NCBI GenBank assembly: GCA_014654415.1
Contig: JACWDC010000005.1
Coordinates: 1 to 64,000, forward strand
Source: Pelagibacterales bacterium SAG-MED05
GTDB lineage: Bacteria; Pseudomonadota; Alphaproteobacteria; Pelagibacterales; Pelagibacteraceae
DNA: 64,000 nucleotides
Reading direction: 5' to 3'
Both the position numbers and the translations under genes were made by a program. This document shows, one piece after another, positions 24,533 to 46,661 of the stretch. Position 1 is the first letter of the stretch. Each line of letters opens with the position of its first letter. Below the pieces are notes generated by a model. The model was not told the origin of the DNA. It saw only the letters and a list, made by a program, of their open reading frames with translations, and searched no databases.

Positions 24533-25294
24533 CCAAATCTTCTTCATACTTAAATAAACTAAAATAGTTAGGAGTAACAAATATATTATAACTTTAAATC
24601 CAACTCTATGTCTCTCTTCTAATTCTGGTTCTGCTGCCCACGCTAAGAAAGTAGTTACATCTTTCGCCATTTGATCCATGGTAGCCTCTGTGCCGTCAGA
24701 ATACTCTACAATGCCTTCGGCTAACGGTGAGGCCATTTTTATTTTTTGACCAATCATGTATTTATTATAATAAACACCATCATCTAACTTCATGCCTGCA
24801 GGTGGTTCCTCGTATCCCATTAAAACTGAATACATGTAATCAGCTCCACCAGGTCTAGCTTTAACTAAAACTGACATATCAGGTGGGTAAGCTCCTCCGT
24901 TAGCTGCTGTTGATGCCTCAACATTTGGATATGGGCTCTTAAATTTATCTGATGGTTTACCTGTCCTTGTAAACATCTCTCCTTGACTATCTGGGCCATC
25001 TTCAATTTCAACACTAGCTGCAATTGCTTTTACTTCTTCCTCAGTAAACTCTGGACCTCCGGGCTCACCTAAATTTCTATAGCTCAAATATTGCATCGAA
25101 TGGCAAGATGCACACACTTCTTTGTAAACTTGAAAACCTCTTTGTAATGAAGCTCTGTCAAATTTACCGGTTAATTCTTTAAAGCTCCAATTAACTTTTA
25201 TTGGGTCAATAGATTCCGCACTGAATAAAGGGTTGATAAAGATTAGTGTTGATAAAATTACAAGAATTAATCTTTTAGAGTTAAATCTTATCAT
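24509..25294 (-). CDS. petC: Cytochrome c1 (bc1 complex)
   Basis: Cytochrome c1 passes electrons from the Rieske protein to cytochrome c on the periplasmic side of complex III. A signal peptide covers about 1-26. The heme is attached at C61-A-S-C64-H65. The axial methionine is probably in [14 protein letters not shown]-terminal membrane anchor (about 236-253) is followed by a short positive tail. The 261-residue length is typical of alphaproteobacteria. The start overlaps the end of petB by 14 bases; the end overlaps ychF. Confidence 0.95.
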
Positions 25295-26540
25295 AATCCT
25301 TCTTGGCTAAAGCTGGGTCTCCGCCGCTTGATAAAACGGGTTCAGATATACTCATAGGTACTGGATCAGTTTTTTCAAATAAGCCTAAAACTGGTAAAAC
25401 GACTATAAAATGTAAAAAATAATAAATAGTTCCAATTCTTGCTAAAGCTAAATAAATACCCTCTGCAGGCATTGCTCCCATATATCCTAGCAATAAAACA
25501 TCTATGACAAATATCCAATAAAAATATCTATACATAGGTCTAAACACTGCAGACCTAACTTTCGAAGTGTCTAACCAGGGAAGAATAAAAAGAATAAATA
25601 TTGATCCAAACATTAAAATAACTCCACCTAATTTATCTGGAACAGATCTTAATATTGCATAAAAAGGCAATAAGTACCATTCAGGAACAATATGAGCTGG
25701 AGTAACTAATGGATTTGCTGGAATATAATTGTCCGAGTGACCTAATACATTTGGTGAAAAGAATACAAATCCAGAAAAAATAATCATGAATAACAATAAA
25801 GCAAAAGCATCTTTGATAGTGATGTAAGGATGAAAAGGTACAGTATCTTTAGAAGGTTTTTTTAAATCTATTCCGATAGGATTATTGTTACCTGGAACGT
25901 GTAATGCCCAGATATGTAAAATTACTAATCCTGAAATCAAAAAAGGAAATAAGTAATGCAAACTAAAAAATCTATTTAAGGTAGGGTTGTCAACTGAATA
26001 AGCCCCCCATAGCCATGTGGTAATGCTTTCTCCAATTAAAGGTATCGCACTAAATAGGCTTGTTATTACAGTAGCTCCCCAAAAGCTCATTTGACCCCAA
26101 GGTAAAACATACCCCATAAATGCCGTTGCCATCATTAATAAATAAATTAATAAACCGATTATCCAAATGACTTCTCTTGGTGATTTGTAAGAGCCATAGA
26201 ATAGAGATCTAAAAATATGAATGTAGACTGCTAAAAAAAACATAGACGCACCATTACTATGAATATATCTGATCAACCAACCAAAGTTTACATTTCTCAT
26301 AATATGTTCGACGCTTGCAAATGCTAGATCGGCATGGGCAACATAATGCATCGCTAAAACAATTCCTGTTATGATTTGAGTCATCAAACAAAAAGTTAAT
26401 ATTCCACCAAAGGTCCACCAATAGTTTAAATTTTTTGGAGTAGGATAATCCGTTAAATGGGACCCTAGAGTTAATAATGGCAAACGGTCGTTAAACCACT
26501 TTCCAGCTTTTGATTTTGGTGTATATTCCTGATCGCTCAT
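25281..26540 (-). CDS. petB: Cytochrome b (bc1 complex)
   Basis: The 419-residue, eight-helix core subunit of complex III carries the low- and high-potential hemes and the quinone sites. The Qo-site motifs [25 protein letters not shown] and the PEWY motif ([17 protein letters not shown]) are present, with heme-ligand histidines in the second and fourth helices ([43 protein letters not shown]). The unfused full-length form is typical of alphaproteobacteria. Order is petA-petB-petC, with 9 bases after petA. Confidence 0.97.
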
Positions 26541-35269: not shown

Positions 35270-36399
35270 TTTTTATAAACTGTCCCAAGATAGCTGTTAA
35301 TAAAACCTTTTCTCTTAATCAAAAATTTTAAAAATATATTTCTTATTTTTTGCATAACAGGGCTTGAAAAATGAAATGCAAAAAAATTAAAGTCGGATCT
35401 TCTTTTTATAATTTTTACTCTTTCTGATCTTTTTTTAAAATAAACATTAGCTGCATCTGGATTTTGATTTTTAATTAAATTGAATAATTCATAAGCGCTC
35501 TCAATTGATTGGCCTGCCCCTTGTGCCAGGGTAGGAAGAAAGCCATTAAAAGCATCACCAATATAAAATACTTTTTGGTTAGATGAAGGAAGTATTTTTG
35601 GACTTGAATATAAAGGCCAAGATTTTAAATCATTTTTAAATAAATCTTTAAAATTTGGATTTTGAGTTAAAAGCTTTCTCTCAATTAAAGATTTAATATT
35701 ATCTGGGTCGTATTTTTTATCTCTGATAATACAAACTAAATTTAATTCATTTTTTTTATTTATTGGATAAATAACTAAATGTAAATTAGACCCCATAAAT
35801 AAACTAATGTTTTTTACTTTTATATCTAAATTATGATTCATGTTAAAAATTGACCTAACAGCAATTGCTTTTTTAAATGAGGGTTGATTCTTTTTCTTTT
35901 CAAAAAAAGATCTGGTATTAGAAAAAATTCCATCAGCTCCCACAACATAGTCAACAAGATCATTGGTATTATCATCAAATTTTATTAAAACTTTTCCTTT
36001 TAATTCTGTTACTTCTTTAATGCGTTTTCCAAACCTTAAATGTTGCGTGTAAATTTCATCTTTTAAAAATTCTATCAATGTAGATCTTTTTAAAGTTGTG
36101 TATTTTGAATATTCGGAATTAAATTTACTAATTTCTAAATCGCATATTTTTTCATTCTTAATTGTAAAAAAATCTATATCTTTAGGATGAAAAATATCTT
36201 TTGAATTTATTTTTTTAAAATCAATTTTATTTAAAATAGAAACACTATTTGTTGCCAACTGAATTCCAAAACCATCATCTAGAGATAAATTTTCTTCTTT
36301 CTCATAAAGCATGAATTCAAAATCAGAATTTTTTTTAATTAAGTTGGCTAAAGTCAAGCCTGCAATACCTGCTCCAATAATCGCTATTTTCTTTTTCAT
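35266..36399 (-). CDS. FAD-dependent aromatic-ring monooxygenase
   Basis: A 377-residue flavoprotein monooxygenase with the N-terminal GxGxxG motif IIGAGIAGLTLANLI (about 6-20), the central DG motif DYVVGADGIFSNTR and the C-terminal GD motif FYIGDAFNGFLPTLAQGAGQSIE. This combination marks the PHBH-like group, including salicylate hydroxylase, UbiH and zeaxanthin epoxidase-like enzymes. A ubiquinone hydroxylase or an aromatic degradation role are both possible. It follows mutY with a one-base overlap. Confidence 0.82.
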   Translation of the reverse strand: MKKKIAIIGAGIAGLTLANLIKKNSDFEFMLYEKEENLSLDDGFGIQLATNSVSILNKIDFKKINSKDIFHPKDIDFFTIKNEKICDLEISKFNSEYSKYTTLKRSTLIEFLKDEIYTQHLRFGKRIKEVTELKGKVLIKFDDNTNDLVDYVVGADGIFSNTRSFFEKKKNQPSFKKAIAVRSIFNMNHNLDIKVKNISLFMGSNLHLVIYPINKKNELNLVCIIRDKKYDPDNIKSLIERKLLTQNPNFKDLFKNDLKSWPLYSSPKILPSSNQKVFYIGDAFNGFLPTLAQGAGQSIESAYELFNLIKNQNPDAANVYFKKRSERVKIIKRRSDFNFFAFHFSSPVMQKIRNIFLKFLIKRKGFINSYLGTVYKN

Positions 36400-37400
36400 T
36401 AAAATAAAGTTGAAACTTGTCTAAATATTTTTTTTGTAAATGTTGGAATGAATTCTTTGTTTTTATCCATTGAATGCCAAATAAAAGATGAAGGTATTTT
36501 ATTTGAAAACTTATAATATAAATTAATATTTAATTTTTTGTTTGAGATAGAATTTTTATATTTTTTTAAAAATTTCCAATCACTAGTTCTTACATTATTT
36601 TTTGCTTCACGAATCTCTGGCAAACTAAATTGATTTAAAAAACCAAGATTATTTTTTTTTGTAAGGGCTATCTGTTTTTTTTTATTTACATAGCAAAAAA
36701 CATCATAATTTATATTTTCGATCATTTTATATTTAGTAGTTTTAATCTTTTTTGAAGATTTAAAATATTTACAATTTTTATTCAAATTACAAATACTGCA
36801 TATTGGTTCTTTAGGCTTGCAAACTAGTGCTCCAAATTCCATTAAAGCCTCAACAAAATCTGAATTTCTTTTTGAATTAAAAAGTTTTTTTTTGTTTATT
36901 TCTATAAAGTAATCAAAATTGATTTTGCTTTCTTTTTTGTTAATTATTCTAGAAAATACTCTTTTTACATTTCCGTCAAATGCAATAGTTGGTTGATTAT
37001 GAACTAATCCTAATAATGCGCTGGCTGTATACTCTCCGATACCTGGAAGAGTTTTAATTTCTTTAATTGTTTTAGGTAATTTTGAATTATATTTGCCAAC
37101 CAATACCTTTGAAGTTGCTAAAAGATTCCTTGCTCTTCTATAATAGCCAAGACCTTCCCATAATTTTAAAATTCGTTTTTCACTACACCTAGAAAGCGAC
37201 TTTAAAGTTTTAAATCTTTTAATAAATCTTTTAAAATATGGAATAACCGTTTTAACCTGAGTTTGCTGCAACATGAATTCGCTTAAAAGTCTATAATAAA
37301 GCTTTTTAGGTGAATTTCTGCCAACACGCCAGGGTAAGCTGCGTTTATTATTATCGTACCAACCTAGAATTTTTTTTGGTAAATTAAAATTTATATGCAT
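36399..37400 (-). CDS. mutY: A/G-specific adenine glycosylase
   Basis: MutY removes adenine mispaired with 8-oxoguanine. The 333-residue protein has the catalytic glutamate in LLSEFMLQQTQV, the helix-hairpin-helix LPGIGEYTASALL, the catalytic aspartate in AFDGNVKRV and the 4Fe-4S motif C-x6-C-x2-C-x5-C (CKPKEPICSICNLNKNC). A shortened, divergent NUDIX-like C-terminal domain follows. The first two codons (ATGCAT) lie on the same palindrome as the divergent dciA start. Confidence 0.95.
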   Translation of the reverse strand: MHINFNLPKKILGWYDNNKRSLPWRVGRNSPKKLYYRLLSEFMLQQTQVKTVIPYFKRFIKRFKTLKSLSRCSEKRILKLWEGLGYYRRARNLLATSKVLVGKYNSKLPKTIKEIKTLPGIGEYTASALLGLVHNQPTIAFDGNVKRVFSRIINKKESKINFDYFIEINKKKLFNSKRNSDFVEALMEFGALVCKPKEPICSICNLNKNCKYFKSSKKIKTTKYKMIENINYDVFCYVNKKKQIALTKKNNLGFLNQFSLPEIREAKNNVRTSDWKFLKKYKNSISNKKLNINLYYKFSNKIPSSFIWHSMDKNKEFIPTFTKKIFRQVSTLF

Positions 37401-37880
37401 AGTAAAGATAATAATAAATTAAAGAATTTCACACAAGGGCTGAGGCCTTTTTCGAGTTCAATACCTAAAACTTTAAAAAAACATTTAAAGACAGGCGGAT
37501 ATAACTATTCAAACATTGTTGATAATTGGACTAAAATGGTAAATAAAAAAATATCTGATTGCTGCTATCCAATTACAGTTAAAATGGGAAAAGAAATGAG
37601 AAATGGCACTTTAGTACTAAATGTGCTTCATGGAAAAGAGCTGGAAATTGAATATAAAAAAAAAGAGATTGTTGATAAAATTAATAGCTTTTTTGGATAT
37701 AATTGTATCAGTCAAGTAACCTTAAAAATAGTGCAAGAAAAAGTTAATACTACAAAAAATGAATTTCCAAAGATTAAAAATTTATCAAAAATTACCGAAA
37801 AAATAGATAATGTTAAAAATAATCAATTAAAGAGTTCGTTAAATAATTTTTTAAAGGCATTCAATGAAAAAAATAAATAG
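37395..37880 (+). CDS. dciA: DciA-like (DUF721) protein
   Basis: DUF721 proteins include DciA, which helps load the replicative helicase in bacteria lacking DnaC or DnaI. The family region RPFSSSIPKTLKKHL and the KH-like core around NGTLVLNVLHGKELEIEYKKKEIVDKINSFFGYN (about 75-110) are visible. The order mutY / DUF721 - dsbA - smc is a conserved alphaproteobacterial neighbourhood. Its start overlaps that of mutY on the opposite strand by 6 bases, and its end overlaps dsbA by 17 bases. Confidence 0.78.
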   Translation: MHSKDNNKLKNFTQGLRPFSSSIPKTLKKHLKTGGYNYSNIVDNWTKMVNKKISDCCYPITVKMGKEMRNGTLVLNVLHGKELEIEYKKKEIVDKINSFFGYNCISQVTLKIVQEKVNTTKNEFPKIKNLSKITEKIDNVKNNQLKSSLNNFLKAFNEKNK

Positions 37881-38457
37881 TTTTTTTTATAAAATAATTT
37901 TTTTTATTTTTCTTACTTTTGCAGTTAATGCTGAAAATAAAATTTTAGAGATAGGAAATTCGAGTGCAGAAATTACTGTAAAAGTATTTTCATCTTTAAC
38001 CTGCCCTCACTGCGCTGATTTTCACAAAAATATATTTGAAAGTTTAAAAAAAGAATATATAGATAAAGACTTAGTGAGATTTGAGCATCACAGTTTCCCC
38101 TTAGATTTAGCAGCGCTCAATGCAGAAATAATTATTAGGTGTATCGCAGATGTTAATAAAAAATTTCAATTATTGGGTGAAATTTATAAAAAACAAAATC
38201 AATGGGCTGTTGGATCTGATATAAATCTCATTAACGAATCTATCAAAAAGATTGGTTTAAATTTTGGGTTAAGCAATATAAAAATGGATAATTGTCTTAA
38301 GAATGAAAGTGTTCAAGATCAAATTTTAAATGAAAGAATTGAAGCGCAAAAAAAGTATAAAATTCAATCTACACCAACTATTTATATTAATGAGAAAAAG
38401 TACAAAGGTGAGCATAAATATAAAACATTTAAGAAAACAATAGAAAAACTTTTATAA
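37864..38457 (+). CDS. DsbA-family thiol:disulfide oxidoreductase
   Basis: A 197-residue exported thioredoxin-fold protein. A hydrophobic signal peptide covers about 5-23 (KIIFFIFLTFAVNA). The active site is C47-P-H-C50 in SLTCPHCADFHKN, and the cis-proline is in IQSTPTIYINEKK. It probably introduces or shuffles disulfides in the periplasm, for example for cytochrome c maturation. It overlaps dciA by 17 bases and is followed directly by smc. Confidence 0.9.
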   Translation: MKKINSFFYKIIFFIFLTFAVNAENKILEIGNSSAEITVKVFSSLTCPHCADFHKNIFESLKKEYIDKDLVRFEHHSFPLDLAALNAEIIIRCIADVNKKFQLLGEIYKKQNQWAVGSDINLINESIKKIGLNFGLSNIKMDNCLKNESVQDQILNERIEAQKKYKIQSTPTIYINEKKYKGEHKYKTFKKTIEKLL

Positions 38458-40902
38458 ATGCAATTTAAAAAATTAGAGATTAATGGCTTTAAATCTTTTT
38501 CTGAAAAAACAACTTTTTTAATTCAAGATGGTTTAACAGGAATAGTTGGACCTAATGGATGTGGCAAATCAAATATAGTTGAGTCTTTAAGATGGTGTAT
38601 GGGTGAAAATTCTGCCAAAAGCATGAGAGGAACTGGGATGGAAGATGTTATTTTTTCTGGAACTTCTAATAAACCATCAAAAAATATTTCAGAAGTAGCA
38701 TTGTTGTTAGAAAACAAGGATAAAGATGGACCGTCTCAATATAATGAATTTGACGAGATAGGAATTAAAAGAAAAATAGAAAAAGATAAGGGGTCAAAAT
38801 ATTATATTAATGACAAGGAAGTTAGAGCGCGAGATGTTCAAACTTTTTTTGCAGACCTATCAACTGGTGCTCACTCACCCTCTTTAATTAGTCAAGGTAG
38901 AATTGGTCAGCTTGTCACTTCTAAACCTATTGAAAGAAGATCTGTTCTTGAAGAAGCTGCTGGAATATCAGGAATTCATTCGAGAAGACAAGAAGCTGAG
39001 ACAAGGCTAAATGCTGCTGAAAATAATTTAAAAAGAGCTGACGAGCTTAAAAAACAACAACAAAAACAATTAGATAATTTAAAAAAACAAGCTGAAGAAG
39101 CGACGAGATATAAAGAAATATCTAAAGAAATAAAAAAGATCGAGTCAGGTTTGTATTATTTAAAAATTAGAGAAATAGAAAAAGATAAAAAACAAATTTC
39201 AGAAAAACTTGGTGAATTAGAAGATGAAGTGAGTGCAATAAATATAGATCTCAATCACAATAATTCTCTTTTAGAAGAAGAGAATAAAAAACTTTCTCCA
39301 TTAAGAGACAAAAAAATGGAAAGTGCTGCTAAAATTCAAAAATTAAATTTAGATATGGCAAGCCTTGAGGAAGAAGAGGCCAGAGTTAAATCATTGGAGA
39401 TAAAACTTGAAAGATCTGTAAAAACGATAGAGTCTGACTCAGAGCGTGAACGAAGTATCTCTTTAGATGCTGAGTTAAATGAAAAAAGAATATCAAAAGA
39501 AAAAGAAGAATTATTAAAAACTGAAAATGAGCTAATAGAAGTAGAGTCAATATCTTCTAAAGAACTTAATTCATCAAAAACTAATTTAAGTAATTTACAA
39601 ACACAATTAGATGCGTTGCTAAATAGAATAGAAGGATACATAGATCAAGAAAAAAAATTAACAAAAGAAATATTTCAAGAATTAAAAGAATTAGTAAAAA
39701 AAATCACTCTATCTCAAGAAGAGTATGCGGAAAAATATGGAAAAAATAAATCTATTCAGAGCGACTCTATTAAAAGAAAAGAAAGAATAAAAAATATAGA
39801 TATTGAGCTTGAAAACTGGAGAAATTTAAAATCTAATTCAGAAAAAATGACCACTGAACTTAATGAAAGAAAAGATAAAATTAAACAAGAATTAAATGAA
39901 AATAAAAAAAATCCAGAACGTATAGCAACTTCAAAAGGTCAAAATTTACAAAATTTAGAAAACACTAAAAAAAGAAATGAAGAAATTGAAACAGAATTAG
40001 TTGAGTCTGAAAGTAAGCACAATTTGATTAGTCAAAATTTAAAAGAGATACAATCCAAATTGTCAGATTTAAAAGAGAAAAAAGCTAGAAACGAAGCAAC
40101 GATTGAAGGTATAGACAATAGAAAGAAAGATTTGATGTATTCAGTGAAAAATGAACTAAGCATCGAAAATGAGACATTATTAATAACTCAATCAGATTTA
40201 AGTAATTTATCTACTGAAAATTTACCTACCATTGAAGATCAAACTCTAAAAGTAGAAAAAATTAAAAAGCAGAGAGAATCTTTAGGATCAGTAAATCTTC
40301 GAGCTGATGAAGAAACTAAAAAATATGAGACGGAAATAAAAAAAATGGAAGATGATAGAGCCGATCTTTATTCTGCAATAGTAAAACTAAAGGCTAGTAT
40401 TGATGAACTTAATCAAAAAGGCAGAGAAAGACTCTTAGAAGCATTTACAAAAGTAAACAGAAAATTCAATGAAGTCTACACAAAATTGTTTAGCGGGGGT
40501 ACTGCAAAAATTGAATTGGTCGACTCGGATGATCCTCTTGAAGCAGGTTTGGAAATGTTTGTATCTCCTCCTGGAAAAAGACTTCAATCAATTACTTTGT
40601 TATCTGGTGGAGAGCAAGCTTTGACGGCATTATCATTAATTTTTGCAGTTTTTTTAGTTAACCCTTCGCCTATTTGTGTTTTAGATGAAGTTGATGCGCC
40701 CTTGGATGATGCTAACGTGACAAAATTTTGTGAACTACTTGATGAATTGACAAAAATTACAAAAACAAAATTTATAATTATCACGCACCATGCTCTAACT
40801 ATGTCAAGAATGCATAGACTATATGGAGTTACTATGGCTGAACAAGGAGTTAGCCAGTTAGTTTCTGTTGACTTGCAAAAAGCTGAAGAGTTAGTAGCTT
40901 AA
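38458..40902 (+). CDS. smc: Chromosome segregation protein SMC, short form without visible hinge
   Basis: The N-terminal ATPase half has Walker A GPNGCGKS (31-38) and the Q-loop region SQGRIG (145-150). The C-terminal half has the signature LSGGEQALTALS (714-725) and Walker B ICVLDEVDAPLDD (739-751), so the head domain is complete. Family length is normally about 1150 residues; this one has 814. Between the heads there is only charged coiled coil (about 165-395 and 435-660). The glycine-rich globular hinge of about 150 residues that dimerises SMC cannot be found. The frame is open and the heads intact, so this is not a simple decayed gene. Confidence 0.92.
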   Translation: MQFKKLEINGFKSFSEKTTFLIQDGLTGIVGPNGCGKSNIVESLRWCMGENSAKSMRGTGMEDVIFSGTSNKPSKNISEVALLLENKDKDGPSQYNEFDEIGIKRKIEKDKGSKYYINDKEVRARDVQTFFADLSTGAHSPSLISQGRIGQLVTSKPIERRSVLEEAAGISGIHSRRQEAETRLNAAENNLKRADELKKQQQKQLDNLKKQAEEATRYKEISKEIKKIESGLYYLKIREIEKDKKQISEKLGELEDEVSAINIDLNHNNSLLEEENKKLSPLRDKKMESAAKIQKLNLDMASLEEEEARVKSLEIKLERSVKTIESDSERERSISLDAELNEKRISKEKEELLKTENELIEVESISSKELNSSKTNLSNLQTQLDALLNRIEGYIDQEKKLTKEIFQELKELVKKITLSQEEYAEKYGKNKSIQSDSIKRKERIKNIDIELENWRNLKSNSEKMTTELNERKDKIKQELNENKKNPERIATSKGQNLQNLENTKKRNEEIETELVESESKHNLISQNLKEIQSKLSDLKEKKARNEATIEGIDNRKKDLMYSVKNELSIENETLLITQSDLSNLSTENLPTIEDQTLKVEKIKKQRESLGSVNLRADEETKKYETEIKKMEDDRADLYSAIVKLKASIDELNQKGRERLLEAFTKVNRKFNEVYTKLFSGGTAKIELVDSDDPLEAGLEMFVSPPGKRLQSITLLSGGEQALTALSLIFAVFLVNPSPICVLDEVDAPLDDANVTKFCELLDELTKITKTKFIIITHHALTMSRMHRLYGVTMAEQGVSQLVSVDLQKAEELVA

Positions 40903-40915
40903 ATATTTAAAAAAA

Positions 40916-41200
40916 ATGACAAATCCTGAGGATTTTAAAACTCGCCTAAAAATTGCAAAATCAAAAATAAAAAAACAAATTAATCCAGACAACGAAAAAA
41001 GAGGCTCTTTTATGGGCAATGCATTCAAATTAGGCACAGAATTAGTTGCTGCCGTTGGAGTTGGGACAATAATTGGGTTTATTTTAGATAGTTGGTTTGA
41101 TACTAAACCATGGTTAATAATAATTTTCTTTTTTTTAGGAGCTGCTGCTGGAATGTTAAATGTTGTAAGAACAGCTAACCGAATGCAAAAAGAAGATTAA
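40916..41200 (+). CDS. atpI: ATP synthase protein I (AtpI)
   Basis: A 94-residue membrane protein with two helices (about 36-55 and 62-82), the second containing WLIIIFFFLGAAAGMLNVVR, matching the alphaproteobacterial AtpI family. AtpI helps assemble the c-ring. It is the first gene of the F0 cluster, 13 bases after smc. Confidence 0.88.
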   Translation: MTNPEDFKTRLKIAKSKIKKQINPDNEKRGSFMGNAFKLGTELVAAVGVGTIIGFILDSWFDTKPWLIIIFFFLGAAAGMLNVVRTANRMQKED

Positions 41201-41214
41201 ATTAAAGGATTTTT

Positions 41215-41949
41215 ATGGCAAATAACCCAATGCAACAATTCAGTGTTCATAAAATAGGTCCAGAAATTAAAATTGCTGGGATAGATCTTTCTTTTACAAA
41301 TGCTAGCTTATTTATGATTATTAGTATGGCTATAATTCTGCTTTTTTTATTCTTAGGAACAAAAGAAAGAAAGATAATTCCAGATAAGATTCAATTGATT
41401 GCTGAAATGCTATATAACTTTGTTGCCAAGATGATTAGTGATACTGCTGGCTCTAAGGCTAAACCTTATTTCCCATTCATATTCAGTTTATTTATGTTCG
41501 TTCTTTTATGTAATATGGTGGGTATGCTCCCTTACGCCTTTACCGTAACTAGCCACATTATTGTTACGCTGATTATGGCTTTGTTTGTTTTTATCGCTGT
41601 AACCATAATTGGTTTCTTTAAACATGGTTTTAAATATTTAAGTATATTTGTTCCTAGTGGAGTTCCAGCTGTTCTTCTTCCTCTCATTACTATAATAGAG
41701 ATTATTTCATATTTAAGCAGACCAGTTAGCTTATCAGTTCGATTATTTGCTAATATGATGGCAGGTCACACTATGTTAAAAGTTTTTGGAGGATTTGTAA
41801 TTAGTTTAGGAATACTAGGTGGTTGGTTACCGCTTAGTTTTTCAGTAGCATTAACAGGCTTAGAAATCTTAGTGGCATTTCTTCAAGCTTATGTTTTTGC
41901 AATATTAACCTGCATCTATTTAAATGATGCATTAAATTTACACCATTAA
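41215..41949 (+). CDS. atpB: ATP synthase F0 subunit a
   Basis: Subunit a forms the proton half-channels next to the c-ring. The 244-residue protein has several helices and the essential arginine in RPVSLSVRLFANMMAGH (about 170-186). The segment TGLEILVAFLQAYVFAILTCIYLNDAL near the C-terminus carries the conserved polar residues of the last helix. There is a 14-base gap after atpI. Confidence 0.97.
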   Translation: MANNPMQQFSVHKIGPEIKIAGIDLSFTNASLFMIISMAIILLFLFLGTKERKIIPDKIQLIAEMLYNFVAKMISDTAGSKAKPYFPFIFSLFMFVLLCNMVGMLPYAFTVTSHIIVTLIMALFVFIAVTIIGFFKHGFKYLSIFVPSGVPAVLLPLITIIEIISYLSRPVSLSVRLFANMMAGHTMLKVFGGFVISLGILGGWLPLSFSVALTGLEILVAFLQAYVFAILTCIYLNDALNLHH

Positions 41950-43292: not shown

Positions 43293-44762
43293 ATGGCAAA
43301 AAAAATAATAATTGTTGGCTCAGGTTTTGGAGGATTAGCCTCTGCCTTGAGATTGCGGGCTAAAGGTTTTGATGTAACTTTAGTTGAAAAACATTCTGGT
43401 CTAGGAGGTAGAGCTAGAGTTTTTAAAAAAGGAAGTTTTACCTATGATGGTGGTCCTACAGTTATAACAGCTCCATATCTTTTTGAAGAATTATTTTCCT
43501 TGTTTAATAAAAAAATTTCTAACTATGTTAAAATTGTCCCTTTAGATTTATGGTACCGATTCGTATTTAGTGATGGACAAACTTTTGATTACTCAGGTGA
43601 TGAAAAATCAATGGAAAAAGAAGTCAAAAAATTTTCAGATAAAGATTTTAAAGGGTATAAGGATTTGGTAAATTTTACAGAAAAAATTTTCAATAAAGGT
43701 TTTACTGATTTATCAGATAAACCATTTAATAATATTGCTTTTATGCTCAATCAGGTGCCCTCGCTGTTAAGGTTAAAAAGTTATATGTCCGTTTATAAAT
43801 TAGTTTCAAATTATATAAAAAATGAAAAACTAAGAAGAGTGTTTAGTATGCATCCTCTTTTAGTAGGAGGTAATCCTTTTACAACTACATCAATTTATAC
43901 ACTAATTTTATTTTTAGAAAAAAAATGGGGCATCCATTACTCGATGGGAGGTACTGGAAACGTAGTAAATGCTTTAGAAAAATTAATGGTGGAAGAAAAT
44001 ATTAAGATCATTAAAGGGGCTGAAGTCACTGAAATCATTTCAAGTGATAACAAGGTTAAAGGGGTTAAGTTAAATAATTCTGAAATAATTGAATGTGATT
44101 ATATAGTTTGTAATTCTGATCCTCCAAATGTTTACCAAAATTTAATCAAATCAAAAAATAATTATAATTTTTTATTTAAACAAAAAATAAAAAGAATGGA
44201 TTATTCTATGGGTTTATTTGTTTATTATTTTGGATCAAAAAAACAATACAAAGACGTGGCCCATCATACTATTTATTTTGGAAATTCTTATGAAAAACAT
44301 TTAGACAAAATTTTTGAGAAAAAAATATTATCCAAAGATATTAGTTATTATTTACACAGACCTTCAGCTACAGATCCTAATATGGCTCCAAGTGGCCAAG
44401 ACGCATTTTATGTTTTAGTTCCTGTGCCAAACAATTTATCAAATATAGATTGGTCAAATGAAGGTAAAAAATTTAAAAATTTAATTTTAGAAAAAATGGA
44501 TAGTTCTGTATTGCCTGGAATAAAAGAGAATGTTGTAAGTGATTTTTATTTGACCCCTGACTATTTTGAAAAAGAATTAGCAACATTACACGGTTCAGGA
44601 TTTTCAATTCAGCCTAAATTTTCACAATCTGCGTATTTTAGATTTCATAATCAATCAGAAGTATTTAAAAATTTGTACTTTGTGGGGGCAGGAACACACC
44701 CTGGAGCAGGAATGCCAGGAGTTCTCTCTTCAGCTAAAGTATTAGATAAATTATTTTCATGA
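43293..44762 (+). CDS. crtI: Phytoene desaturase (lycopene-forming)
   Basis: CrtI introduces double bonds into phytoene to form lycopene. The 489-residue flavoprotein has the N-terminal FAD motif IIIVGSGFGGLASALRLRAKG (about 4-24), RARVFKKGSFTYDGGPTVI, and the C-terminal family signature YFVGAGTHPGAGMPGVLSSAKV (about 460-481). The length and both signatures fit bacterial CrtI. It is the first of four retinal-synthesis genes, lies 17 bases behind atpF and overlaps crtB by 4 bases. Confidence 0.94.
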   Translation: MAKKIIIVGSGFGGLASALRLRAKGFDVTLVEKHSGLGGRARVFKKGSFTYDGGPTVITAPYLFEELFSLFNKKISNYVKIVPLDLWYRFVFSDGQTFDYSGDEKSMEKEVKKFSDKDFKGYKDLVNFTEKIFNKGFTDLSDKPFNNIAFMLNQVPSLLRLKSYMSVYKLVSNYIKNEKLRRVFSMHPLLVGGNPFTTTSIYTLILFLEKKWGIHYSMGGTGNVVNALEKLMVEENIKIIKGAEVTEIISSDNKVKGVKLNNSEIIECDYIVCNSDPPNVYQNLIKSKNNYNFLFKQKIKRMDYSMGLFVYYFGSKKQYKDVAHHTIYFGNSYEKHLDKIFEKKILSKDISYYLHRPSATDPNMAPSGQDAFYVLVPVPNNLSNIDWSNEGKKFKNLILEKMDSSVLPGIKENVVSDFYLTPDYFEKELATLHGSGFSIQPKFSQSAYFRFHNQSEVFKNLYFVGAGTHPGAGMPGVLSSAKVLDKLFS

Positions 44763-45607
44763 GTAATAATTTATTAAAAAAACATGCAAAATCTTTTTAC
44801 TGGGCTAGTTTCTTCTTATCTAAAGAGATATTTAGTAAATGTTCCTCTCTATATAACTTTTGTAGAACTTTAGATGATATCGTTGATGATCATGAAAAGC
44901 TGGTAATTAAAAAAGATAATTTCTTTAGATTTAAAAAGAATTTTATAGATAAAGATCTCAATAATCCAATAATCAAAGAAATGTGGTCGATAATTAATAG
45001 TGAAAAAATTTCCGAAAAGGTTGTAACAGATTTATTTGATGGAGTTGAAACGGACTTAGAAGAAAAAGTGCAGATCAATTCAAAAAAAGAATTATTAATT
45101 TACTCTTATAGAGTTGCAGGAACAGTTGGTTTGATGATGTCAAAGATTTTAAAAGTAAAAAATAAAGAGGCTCTAAAAGGAGCAATTGATCTTGGGATTG
45201 CTATGCAACTTACAAATATTGCTCGAGACGTTTGTGAAGATAGAGATCGTAATCGTAAATATATTAAACCTGATTTTTCTGCTATTAAAGAAACAATAAA
45301 CGACTCTCAAATATTTTACGAAAAATCTTTCAATTCAATTAGTAGCATACCATTAAGATCTAGATTTTCAGTTATTGTGGCGAGACGCGTTTATAGAAAA
45401 ATTGGCGATTATATTTTGAAACAAAAAAACATAGAAAATTATAATAAAGCAGGAAAAATCTATGTTCCAATTTTTGGGAAAATAATTCAGACTTTTTTCT
45501 CTATTTTTGACTTTTTTAAATTATTATTTGTTAAGCGGTTAATTTACGATAATCATATAAACCATAATATTTTAGATAAAGAAGTTAACTTAAATGAAAG
45601 AATTTAA
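44759..45607 (+). CDS. crtB: Phytoene synthase
   Basis: CrtB condenses two geranylgeranyl diphosphates to phytoene. The two aspartate-rich motifs are visible: LDDIVDDHE (about 40-48) and ARDVCEDRDRNRKYI (about 158-172). YSYRVAGTVGLMMSKIL is the typical middle helix. The 282-residue length is slightly short for the family. The crtE gene needed for its substrate is not in the window. It overlaps crtY by 14 bases. Confidence 0.94.
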   Translation: MSNNLLKKHAKSFYWASFFLSKEIFSKCSSLYNFCRTLDDIVDDHEKLVIKKDNFFRFKKNFIDKDLNNPIIKEMWSIINSEKISEKVVTDLFDGVETDLEEKVQINSKKELLIYSYRVAGTVGLMMSKILKVKNKEALKGAIDLGIAMQLTNIARDVCEDRDRNRKYIKPDFSAIKETINDSQIFYEKSFNSISSIPLRSRFSVIVARRVYRKIGDYILKQKNIENYNKAGKIYVPIFGKIIQTFFSIFDFFKLLFVKRLIYDNHINHNILDKEVNLNERI

Positions 45608-46661
45608 TTATTTAATCATTGGTGGAGGATGCGCAGGCTTATCTTTGGCTTATGAGCTTGAAATTAATGGAAAATTAAAGGATAAAACTTTAGCTATCAT
45701 TGAGCCTCGTAAAGAATATAGAAGAGATAAAACTTGGTCTTTCTGGAAAGTATTTGATCATAATTTTGAAGATTGTGTAATAAAGAGTTGGAATAATTTT
45801 ACAATACACTCCTCTGAAAGTTCTCAAGAATTAACAAATATAAATTTTCCTTACCAGAGTATTGATAGTGGAAAATTTTATGAAAAAATTAATTTAAAAC
45901 TTTCTGCTAATCCAAATATAAATTTTTTCAAAAATCTTAATGAGATTAATTCGAAAAATTCAATTGTCTTCAATAGTGTGTTTGAAGGTGAACTTGATAA
46001 ATCAGAGTTGTGGCAGCACTTCCAAGGAGTTGAAATTGAGACAAAAAAGGATATTTTTGATGATGAGATTTTAAACCTAATGGATTTTAATTGCGATCAA
46101 AGAAATGATGTGCATTTTTTTTATACATTGCCCTTTAGAAAAAATAAAGCTTTGGTTGAAACAACCTGGTTATCAGATTTAGAAGATCAAAGCCTTATGG
46201 ATTATGATTTACAACTGGAAAACTATATCAAAAATAATTTAGGGATAAAAGATTATAAAATAAATTTTACAGAAAAAGGAGCTATACCTTTATTTTATCC
46301 ATCATTTAAAAATGATGATAAAAATATTAACATAGGATCTGCTGGAGGAATGACTAGATTAAGCACTGGATATACTTTTTTGAATATTCAAGAGCATAGT
46401 AAATATATTGTAAAGAATATTCATAAAATAAAACAAATAAATACATTTAATCTTGGAAAAAAATATCAATTTTTAGATAAAGTATTTCTAAGAGTCTTAG
46501 AAAAACATCCAGAAAAAATGCCAAAGATATTCTCAGATATGTTCAAAACTTCTTCTAATACAGTTATTAAATTTTTATCAAATAAAAGTAATATTTTTGA
46601 AGATATTAATATTATAAGAAAAATGCCTAAATTAATTTTTATAAAGGCATTATTTAGCTAA
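45594..46661 (+). CDS. crtY: Lycopene beta-cyclase, CrtY type
   Basis: CrtY closes both ends of lycopene to give beta-carotene. The 355-residue protein has a dinucleotide-binding start NYLIIGGGCAGLSLAYEL (about 5-22), the family motif RRDKTWSFW (about 44-52), and the C-terminal GSAGGMTRLSTGYTFLNIQEH. It overlaps crtB by 14 bases and its last base is shared with the blh start. Confidence 0.93.
   Translation: MKEFNYLIIGGGCAGLSLAYELEINGKLKDKTLAIIEPRKEYRRDKTWSFWKVFDHNFEDCVIKSWNNFTIHSSESSQELTNINFPYQSIDSGKFYEKINLKLSANPNINFFKNLNEINSKNSIVFNSVFEGELDKSELWQHFQGVEIETKKDIFDDEILNLMDFNCDQRNDVHFFYTLPFRKNKALVETTWLSDLEDQSLMDYDLQLENYIKNNLGIKDYKINFTEKGAIPLFYPSFKNDDKNINIGSAGGMTRLSTGYTFLNIQEHSKYIVKNIHKIKQINTFNLGKKYQFLDKVFLRVLEKHPEKMPKIFSDMFKTSSNTVIKFLSNKSNIFEDINIIRKMPKLIFIKALFS

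Follow-up and report, generated by a model that had tools for sequence, protein, structure and literature searches.

An smc gene at a conserved locus

The window analyzed here, a stretch of 64,000 nucleotides from the SAR11 bacterium Pelagibacterales bacterium SAG-MED05 (contig JACWDC010000005.1), carries an smc gene in a conserved locus (Table 1). The order mutY-DUF721-dsbA-smc-atpI-atpB is common to SAR11 and hinge-bearing alphaproteobacteria, which have a longer smc in the same place. Gene order and sequence similarity indicate that the window smc and the ordinary alphaproteobacterial smc are orthologues, with the window gene still at the ancestral locus. As hinge-bearing relatives have the long smc at this locus, the hinge was lost in situ, with no foreign gene swapped in. 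The gene after mutY had no NCBIfam match, and we take it to be DUF721/DciA-like. After the ATP synthase genes, positions 43293-46661 hold carotenoid-synthesis-like genes (crtI-, crtB-, and crtY-like, by eye).

Table 1. Features of the smc locus in the window
Feature	Positions	Strand	Basis
mutY (A/G-specific adenine glycosylase)	36399..37400	-	conserved locus
DUF721/DciA-like gene (presumed)	37395..37880	+	conserved locus
dsbA-like thioredoxin gene, last base directly before smc start	37864..38457	+	
smc, hinge-less, 814 aa	38458..40902	+	
ATPase head, N-terminal half (residues 1-170)	38458..38967	+	motifs, Pfam, AlphaFold2
Walker A GPNGCGKS (residues 31-38)	38548-38571	+	sequence
N-terminal arm helix (residues 173-396)	38974..39645	+	AlphaFold2 secondary structure
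Tip region (residues 375-424), variable in length and the least conserved part in SAR11; possible distal contact	39580..39729	+	
Predicted hairpin turn (residues 397-402), in the hinge's usual place	39646..39663	+	AlphaFold2
C-terminal arm (residues 403-608)	39664..40281	+	AlphaFold2
Trp454 codon, residue also conserved in hinge-bearing alphaproteobacterial Smc	39817-39819	+	alignment
ATPase head, C-terminal half (residues 641-814)	40378..40899	+	motifs, Pfam, AlphaFold2
Signature LSGGEQ (residues 715-720)	40600-40617	+	sequence
Walker B ICVLDE (residues 739-744)	40672-40689	+	sequence
atpI and atpB, downstream part of conserved locus	40916..41949	+	

The first-pass annotation had described a short SMC protein of 814 residues with intact head motifs, and this description holds: the open reading frame is about 338 aa below the usual alphaproteobacterial Smc (~1150 aa), and Walker A, signature, and Walker B are all present in its split head. 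Pfam places SMC_N heads at both ends of the protein, and the NCBIfam SMC_prok_B model (TIGR02168) scores it at 677.6 bits, compared with a curated equivalog cutoff of 567.35. The protein is an intact bacterial Smc, which we file as a hinge-less variant and not as a canonical one. With the window protein as the query, no second SMC was found in the same genome at E≤0.001. Identity as RecN was rejected, the score for that equivalog (41.4 bits) being far below the cutoff of 407.85, and identity as SbcC/Rad50 was rejected for want of a CxxC zinc hook; in both cases the genome also has ScpAB. Given the Smc score and ScpAB, MukB or MksB is unlikely as well.

The partner genes scpA and scpB, named in the first-pass annotation as a point to check, are both present and adjoin each other elsewhere in the genome (G000:C2, minus strand; scpA at ~25230-25973 and scpB at ~24535-25233). 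ScpA and ScpB both score over the Pfam cutoff; ScpB also passes NCBIfam TIGR00281, and ScpA is below the NCBIfam cutoffs. ScpB occurs in 89 of the 118 family genomes. Across the order, 54 of 58 genomes have ParB; none was found in SAG-MED05, whose genome is incomplete. Because scpA, scpB, and, in the order, ParB are retained, gene content suggests that the complex in which Smc normally acts has been kept. The 64-kb window, which need not hold the origin, contains no parS site.

Absence of the hinge

Textbooks define SMC proteins in part by their hinge. The first-pass annotation had proposed that it is missing here and had pointed to residues 340-440 as the place where a profile match would contradict this; the Pfam hinge profile PF06470 gave no match at E≤10 to the window protein, nor did it at E≤10 across the whole SAG-MED05 genome. 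This absence is insufficient as sole proof, as PF06470 misses many alphaproteobacterial hinges: it exceeds its cutoff in fewer than half of the alphaproteobacterial genomes (119 of 241) and overlooks the real hinge of L144, an 881-aa Smc with short arms. PF06470 being too weak in Alphaproteobacteria, we built class-specific hinge models, with a hidden Markov model made from an alignment of 18 full-length alphaproteobacterial Smc proteins, in which the hinge is plain (residues 506-638 of L148, with the motifs GDDL and LWRWDG). Every hinge-bearing alphaproteobacterial Smc tested scored 66 to 206 bits with the class model, including the short-armed L144 (98 bits) and L196/L197 (865 aa; 71-72 bits). 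SAR11 Smc proteins gave no match, only occasional chance scores that never exceeded 1 bit. Profile-profile comparison by hhalign agreed: full-length Smc reached 100%, L144 99.3%, and L196 98.4%, versus 0.0-0.1% for three SAR11 groups. In the 864-aa family, the aligner set the segment EGYDDPEKW against the hinge; as hhalign gave 0.1%, we rejected a vestigial hinge and took the alignment to be chance.

The composition of the region points the same way. The center of SAR11 Smc is polar coiled coil with ~2% glycine plus proline, 2.1% in the window Smc, compared with 4-8% in most full-length relatives. It contains no CxxC motif, and the central region of the window Smc has no cysteine; a zinc hook as a substitute for the hinge was therefore rejected. 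A sequence search of solved structures was uninformative on the hinge, since even full-length alphaproteobacterial Smc retrieves no hinge-only structure.

We extended the search to 198 Pelagibacterales genomes, and neither PF06470 nor the class profile found a hinge anywhere. The empty result carries weight because the same class profile was positive in 11 of 13 non-SAR11 control genomes, among them G509 and G400, which encode short-armed Smc. With this positive control working, we rejected the idea of a hinge encoded by a gene of its own at another genomic site. It might still be argued that a hinge is present and has diverged beyond recognition, since PF06470 alone overlooks many real alphaproteobacterial hinges. 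However, the class profiles recognize hinges in proteins just as short but not in SAR11, the center has the glycine- and proline-poor composition of a coiled coil, and the predicted structure described below turns within 6 residues. We regard a diverged hinge as very improbable and refuted as far as sequence and AlphaFold2 can refute it.

Predicted shape of the protein

The AlphaFold2 monomer model of the window Smc, made with 26 related sequences, is of moderate confidence (mean pLDDT, 76; pTM, 0.46). It consists of the head, a helix spanning residues 255-396, a turn (397-402), and a second helix (403-483), forming a plain antiparallel hairpin with no globular distal end. The turn falls inside the span of residues 385-435, near which the first-pass annotation had tentatively placed a coiled-coil end; this end is a candidate for the alternative dimer contact that the annotation proposed. 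The 857-aa relative L170 was also predicted to form a hairpin, with the turn at ~419-421 and a second break at 445-449. Foldseek against the PDB returned SMC heads and arms only and nothing specific for the tip.

The arms align with those of hinge-bearing Smc up to a conserved belt, formed by ERE near residue 330 and by Trp454 on the other arm. From the belt to the hinge there are ~160 residues per side in full-length Smc, compared with ~55 from the belt to the turn in SAR11, which has therefore lost the hinge plus roughly 100 residues per arm. The residual distal hairpin cannot be aligned to the parent Smc. It is in the tip that length varies within SAR11 Smc (proteins of 798-866 aa), and L377 and Y423 are the only invariant positions from residue 375 to 425 (alignment A1). 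The tip is the fastest-evolving and least conserved part of the protein, and the conservation data do not back it as a conserved interface. Its 50 residues are more hydrophobic than the arm average in seven of eight SAR11 representatives, an excess that is modest and absent in one clade.

Conservation in Pelagibacterales

The short form is not confined to SAG-MED05. The window Smc has matches in 186 of the 198 Pelagibacterales genomes, with intact copies of 798-866 aa, and in 90 of 121 genomes of a genus sample, where nearly all full-length matches are frames of 814-823 aa at one copy per genome. The same hinge-less design thus runs across the order, a point that the first-pass annotation had proposed to check, and its view of a streamlined Smc without a hinge is backed by every test run (profiles, hhalign, AlphaFold2, and order-wide searches). 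The window protein finds no match in 12 of the 198 Pelagibacterales genomes (9 when only the 149 good ones are counted) or in 67 of 241 genomes of the class; broken contigs, limits of the search, and genuine absence are all possible reasons. Single stops or frame breaks within smc were seen in L047 (G020), G097, and G086 and are probably draft errors.

Median dN/dS between close pairs is 0.017-0.034 for the heads, 0.05-0.06 for the arms, and 0.085 for residues 375-424, and these values indicate that smc is a functional, constrained gene under strong purifying selection. They also bear on whether the short gene could be an assembly deletion or a pseudogene, a concern raised by the state of the SAG-MED05 genome (a 35-contig draft, 87% complete). 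Against this, tens of independent genomes carry an 814-aa copy with 81-95% identity, the single-contig genomes G123, G129, and G142 have the same hinge-less design, and the selection on the gene is strong. The sequence conservation refutes this explanation, to which we assign a negligible probability.

Evolution and other apparent hinge losses

In a tree built on head sequences, which included no actinobacterial sequence, 17 SAR11 Smc proteins form one clade with support of 100/100. From sequence comparison and structure models we show loss of the hinge by the common ancestor of Pelagibacterales, together with roughly the distal 100 residues per arm. An 817-aa hinge-less Smc is found at the same locus in MarineAlpha6-type alphaproteobacteria (L194/L195, 4001-6451). 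The approximately unbiased (AU) test did not reject a single hinge loss common to SAR11 and MarineAlpha6 (p 0.42), with long branches involved. The AU test rejected a sister relationship between SAR11 Smc and the hinge-bearing Smc with short arms (p 0.006), again with long branches involved, so arm shortening may have occurred more than once.

Marine gammaproteobacteria also have Smc without a hinge by alpha and gamma hinge models, namely, L201 (4001-6718, 906 aa) and the SAR86 sequence L237 (4001-6208, 736 aa); the gammaproteobacterial model scores its own members at 142-160 bits. Gamma- and betaproteobacterial Smc proteins among the matches listed in a phylum-wide sample have 1138-1355 aa. 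L201 and L237 branch apart from the alphaproteobacteria in the head tree, and their hinge loss is probably independent. We found no published report of the apparent hinge losses in MarineAlpha6 and SAR86-type bacteria. A Treponema Smc (L212, 3607-6690, 1028 aa) has a helical center of ~110 residues and is a candidate for hinge loss, no hinge being detectable.

Comparison with known systems

SAR11 Smc is like canonical Smc-ScpAB (TIGR02168) in its orthologous heads, Trp454 belt, locus, and ScpA/ScpB partners, with ParB kept in the order. It differs in having no hinge, in an arm helix of ~224 residues rather than the ~340 of full-length relatives, and in a distal arm replaced by a short hairpin. 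Shortened arms and exchanged hinges have precedents in the laboratory: Bacillus subtilis Smc works with arms of 253-267 residues, and its hinge can be replaced by the Rad50 zinc hook (PMC5344682), as the Rad50 hook can by an SMC hinge (PMC6969161). RecN and SbcC/Rad50 share with SAR11 Smc the SMC-like heads on coiled-coil hairpins and the lack of an SMC hinge, and RecN dimers are described, in work cited in PMC6856136, as elongated and held by hydrophobic coiled-coil contacts.

Hinge-less SMC as such is already known. Sussfeld et al. 2025 (PMC12153180) reported it in marine Actinobacteria from metagenomic sequences with uncertain host; the main text of that paper has no mention of SAR11, Pelagibacter, SAR86, or spirochetes. 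Both forms are marine, have neither hinge nor zinc hook, are predicted to be hairpins, and have no regular SMC alongside. Unlike the actinobacterial form, the SAR11 protein serves an entire alphaproteobacterial order as its only Smc, is encoded at the ancestral locus, and is accompanied by ScpA and ScpB; by locus and by similarity to class members, it is alphaproteobacterial and falls outside the actinobacterial clade. A full-text search of openly accessible articles found no published report of hinge-less Smc in SAR11. What appears to be new here is a hinge-less Smc as the sole Smc of an entire dominant order, with its partners, its ancestry, and matched hinge-bearing relatives.

The closest engineered counterpart is the Wadjet JetC core without the elbow-to-hinge segment (JetC 348-686), which extrudes loops only while the dimer is kept closed (Liu et al. 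2025, PMC12647877). Its activity was lost once the replacement dimer link, a disulfide, was reduced (PMC12647877); its ring therefore had to be closed. In both this core and SAR11 Smc, the elbow-to-hinge part is gone and the heads and proximal arms are kept, but the Wadjet core is man-made and disulfide-closed, whereas SAR11 Smc is natural and has a hairpin.

Proposed mechanism

The retained motifs and partner genes suggest that SAR11 Smc is most likely the ATP-driven motor of an Smc-ScpA-ScpB complex. ATP would make two heads engage, ScpA would bridge head and neck, ScpB would bind ScpA, and DNA would be held and moved by this core. By analogy, SAR11 Smc may extrude loops, and, to judge from the published engineered complexes, a natural core-only SMC would fold DNA without the hinge gate for obstacle bypass. 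The weakest step concerns the far end, where the tips or arms of two hairpins may be packed as a coiled coil in the hinge's stead.

We consider the best explanation, and a somewhat probable one, to be a core-only Smc-ScpAB motor with hairpins joined distally by coiled-coil packing. The distal packing of tips or arms taken by itself has, in our estimate, slightly less than an even chance; we favor such a contact because the engineered core needed closure, with the RecN coiled-coil dimer as a comparison. The tip is mildly rich in hydrophobic residues, yet its fast evolution and variable length are unexpected for a conserved interface. These features are what would be expected of a free end, and the main rival is an open clamp in which the hairpins are joined only at the heads, through ATP engagement and ScpAB, both of which are retained, with the far ends free and no ring. 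The inactivity of the Wadjet core after reduction of its dimer link (PMC12647877) speaks against an open clamp, as does the tip itself, where purifying selection is still visible (dN/dS 0.085) and hydrophobic residues tend to be commoner than in the arms; we consider an open clamp unlikely, if the strongest of the competitors. Another SAR11 protein might instead bind and join the hairpin tips, doing the hinge's job. This is improbable: there is no candidate and no separate hinge-like gene in the 198 genomes of the order, the neighbors of smc are the ordinary alphaproteobacterial ones, and a tip with so little conservation would be ill suited to bind an adaptor.

SAR11 bacteria are among the most abundant in the sea, and they appear to fold their chromosomes with a pared-down apparatus otherwise built by engineering. 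We tentatively propose, with the odds somewhat against the full picture, an order-wide core-only Smc-ScpAB without a hinge gate, whose distal contact would be either new to SMC biology or nonexistent, and repeated hinge loss in streamlined marine SAR11, MarineAlpha6, SAR86-type gammaproteobacteria, and Actinobacteria. Recent work argues that loops can be extruded without the hinge, that its role is that of a gate for passing obstacles, and that the dimer must stay closed. A hinge-less order is a natural test of the dispensable-hinge claim: DNA would be expected to fold with no bypass through a hinge, and the question arises of what closes the ring. If the SAR86-type and actinobacterial losses are independent, hinge loss would be a recurrent feature of genome streamlining. 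We speculate that cells with little replication and transcription traffic may be able to tolerate it.

A matched comparison is offered by other alphaproteobacteria with small genomes, whose Smc proteins (G509/L144, 881 aa; L196/L197, 865 aa; G400, 869-aa frame) have similarly shortened arms and differ from SAR11 Smc in keeping a recognizable hinge of ~115-130 residues. L144 (1670-4312, minus strand) and L196/L197 (4001-6595) are natural mini-Smc proteins with a diverged hinge and useful for such a comparison.
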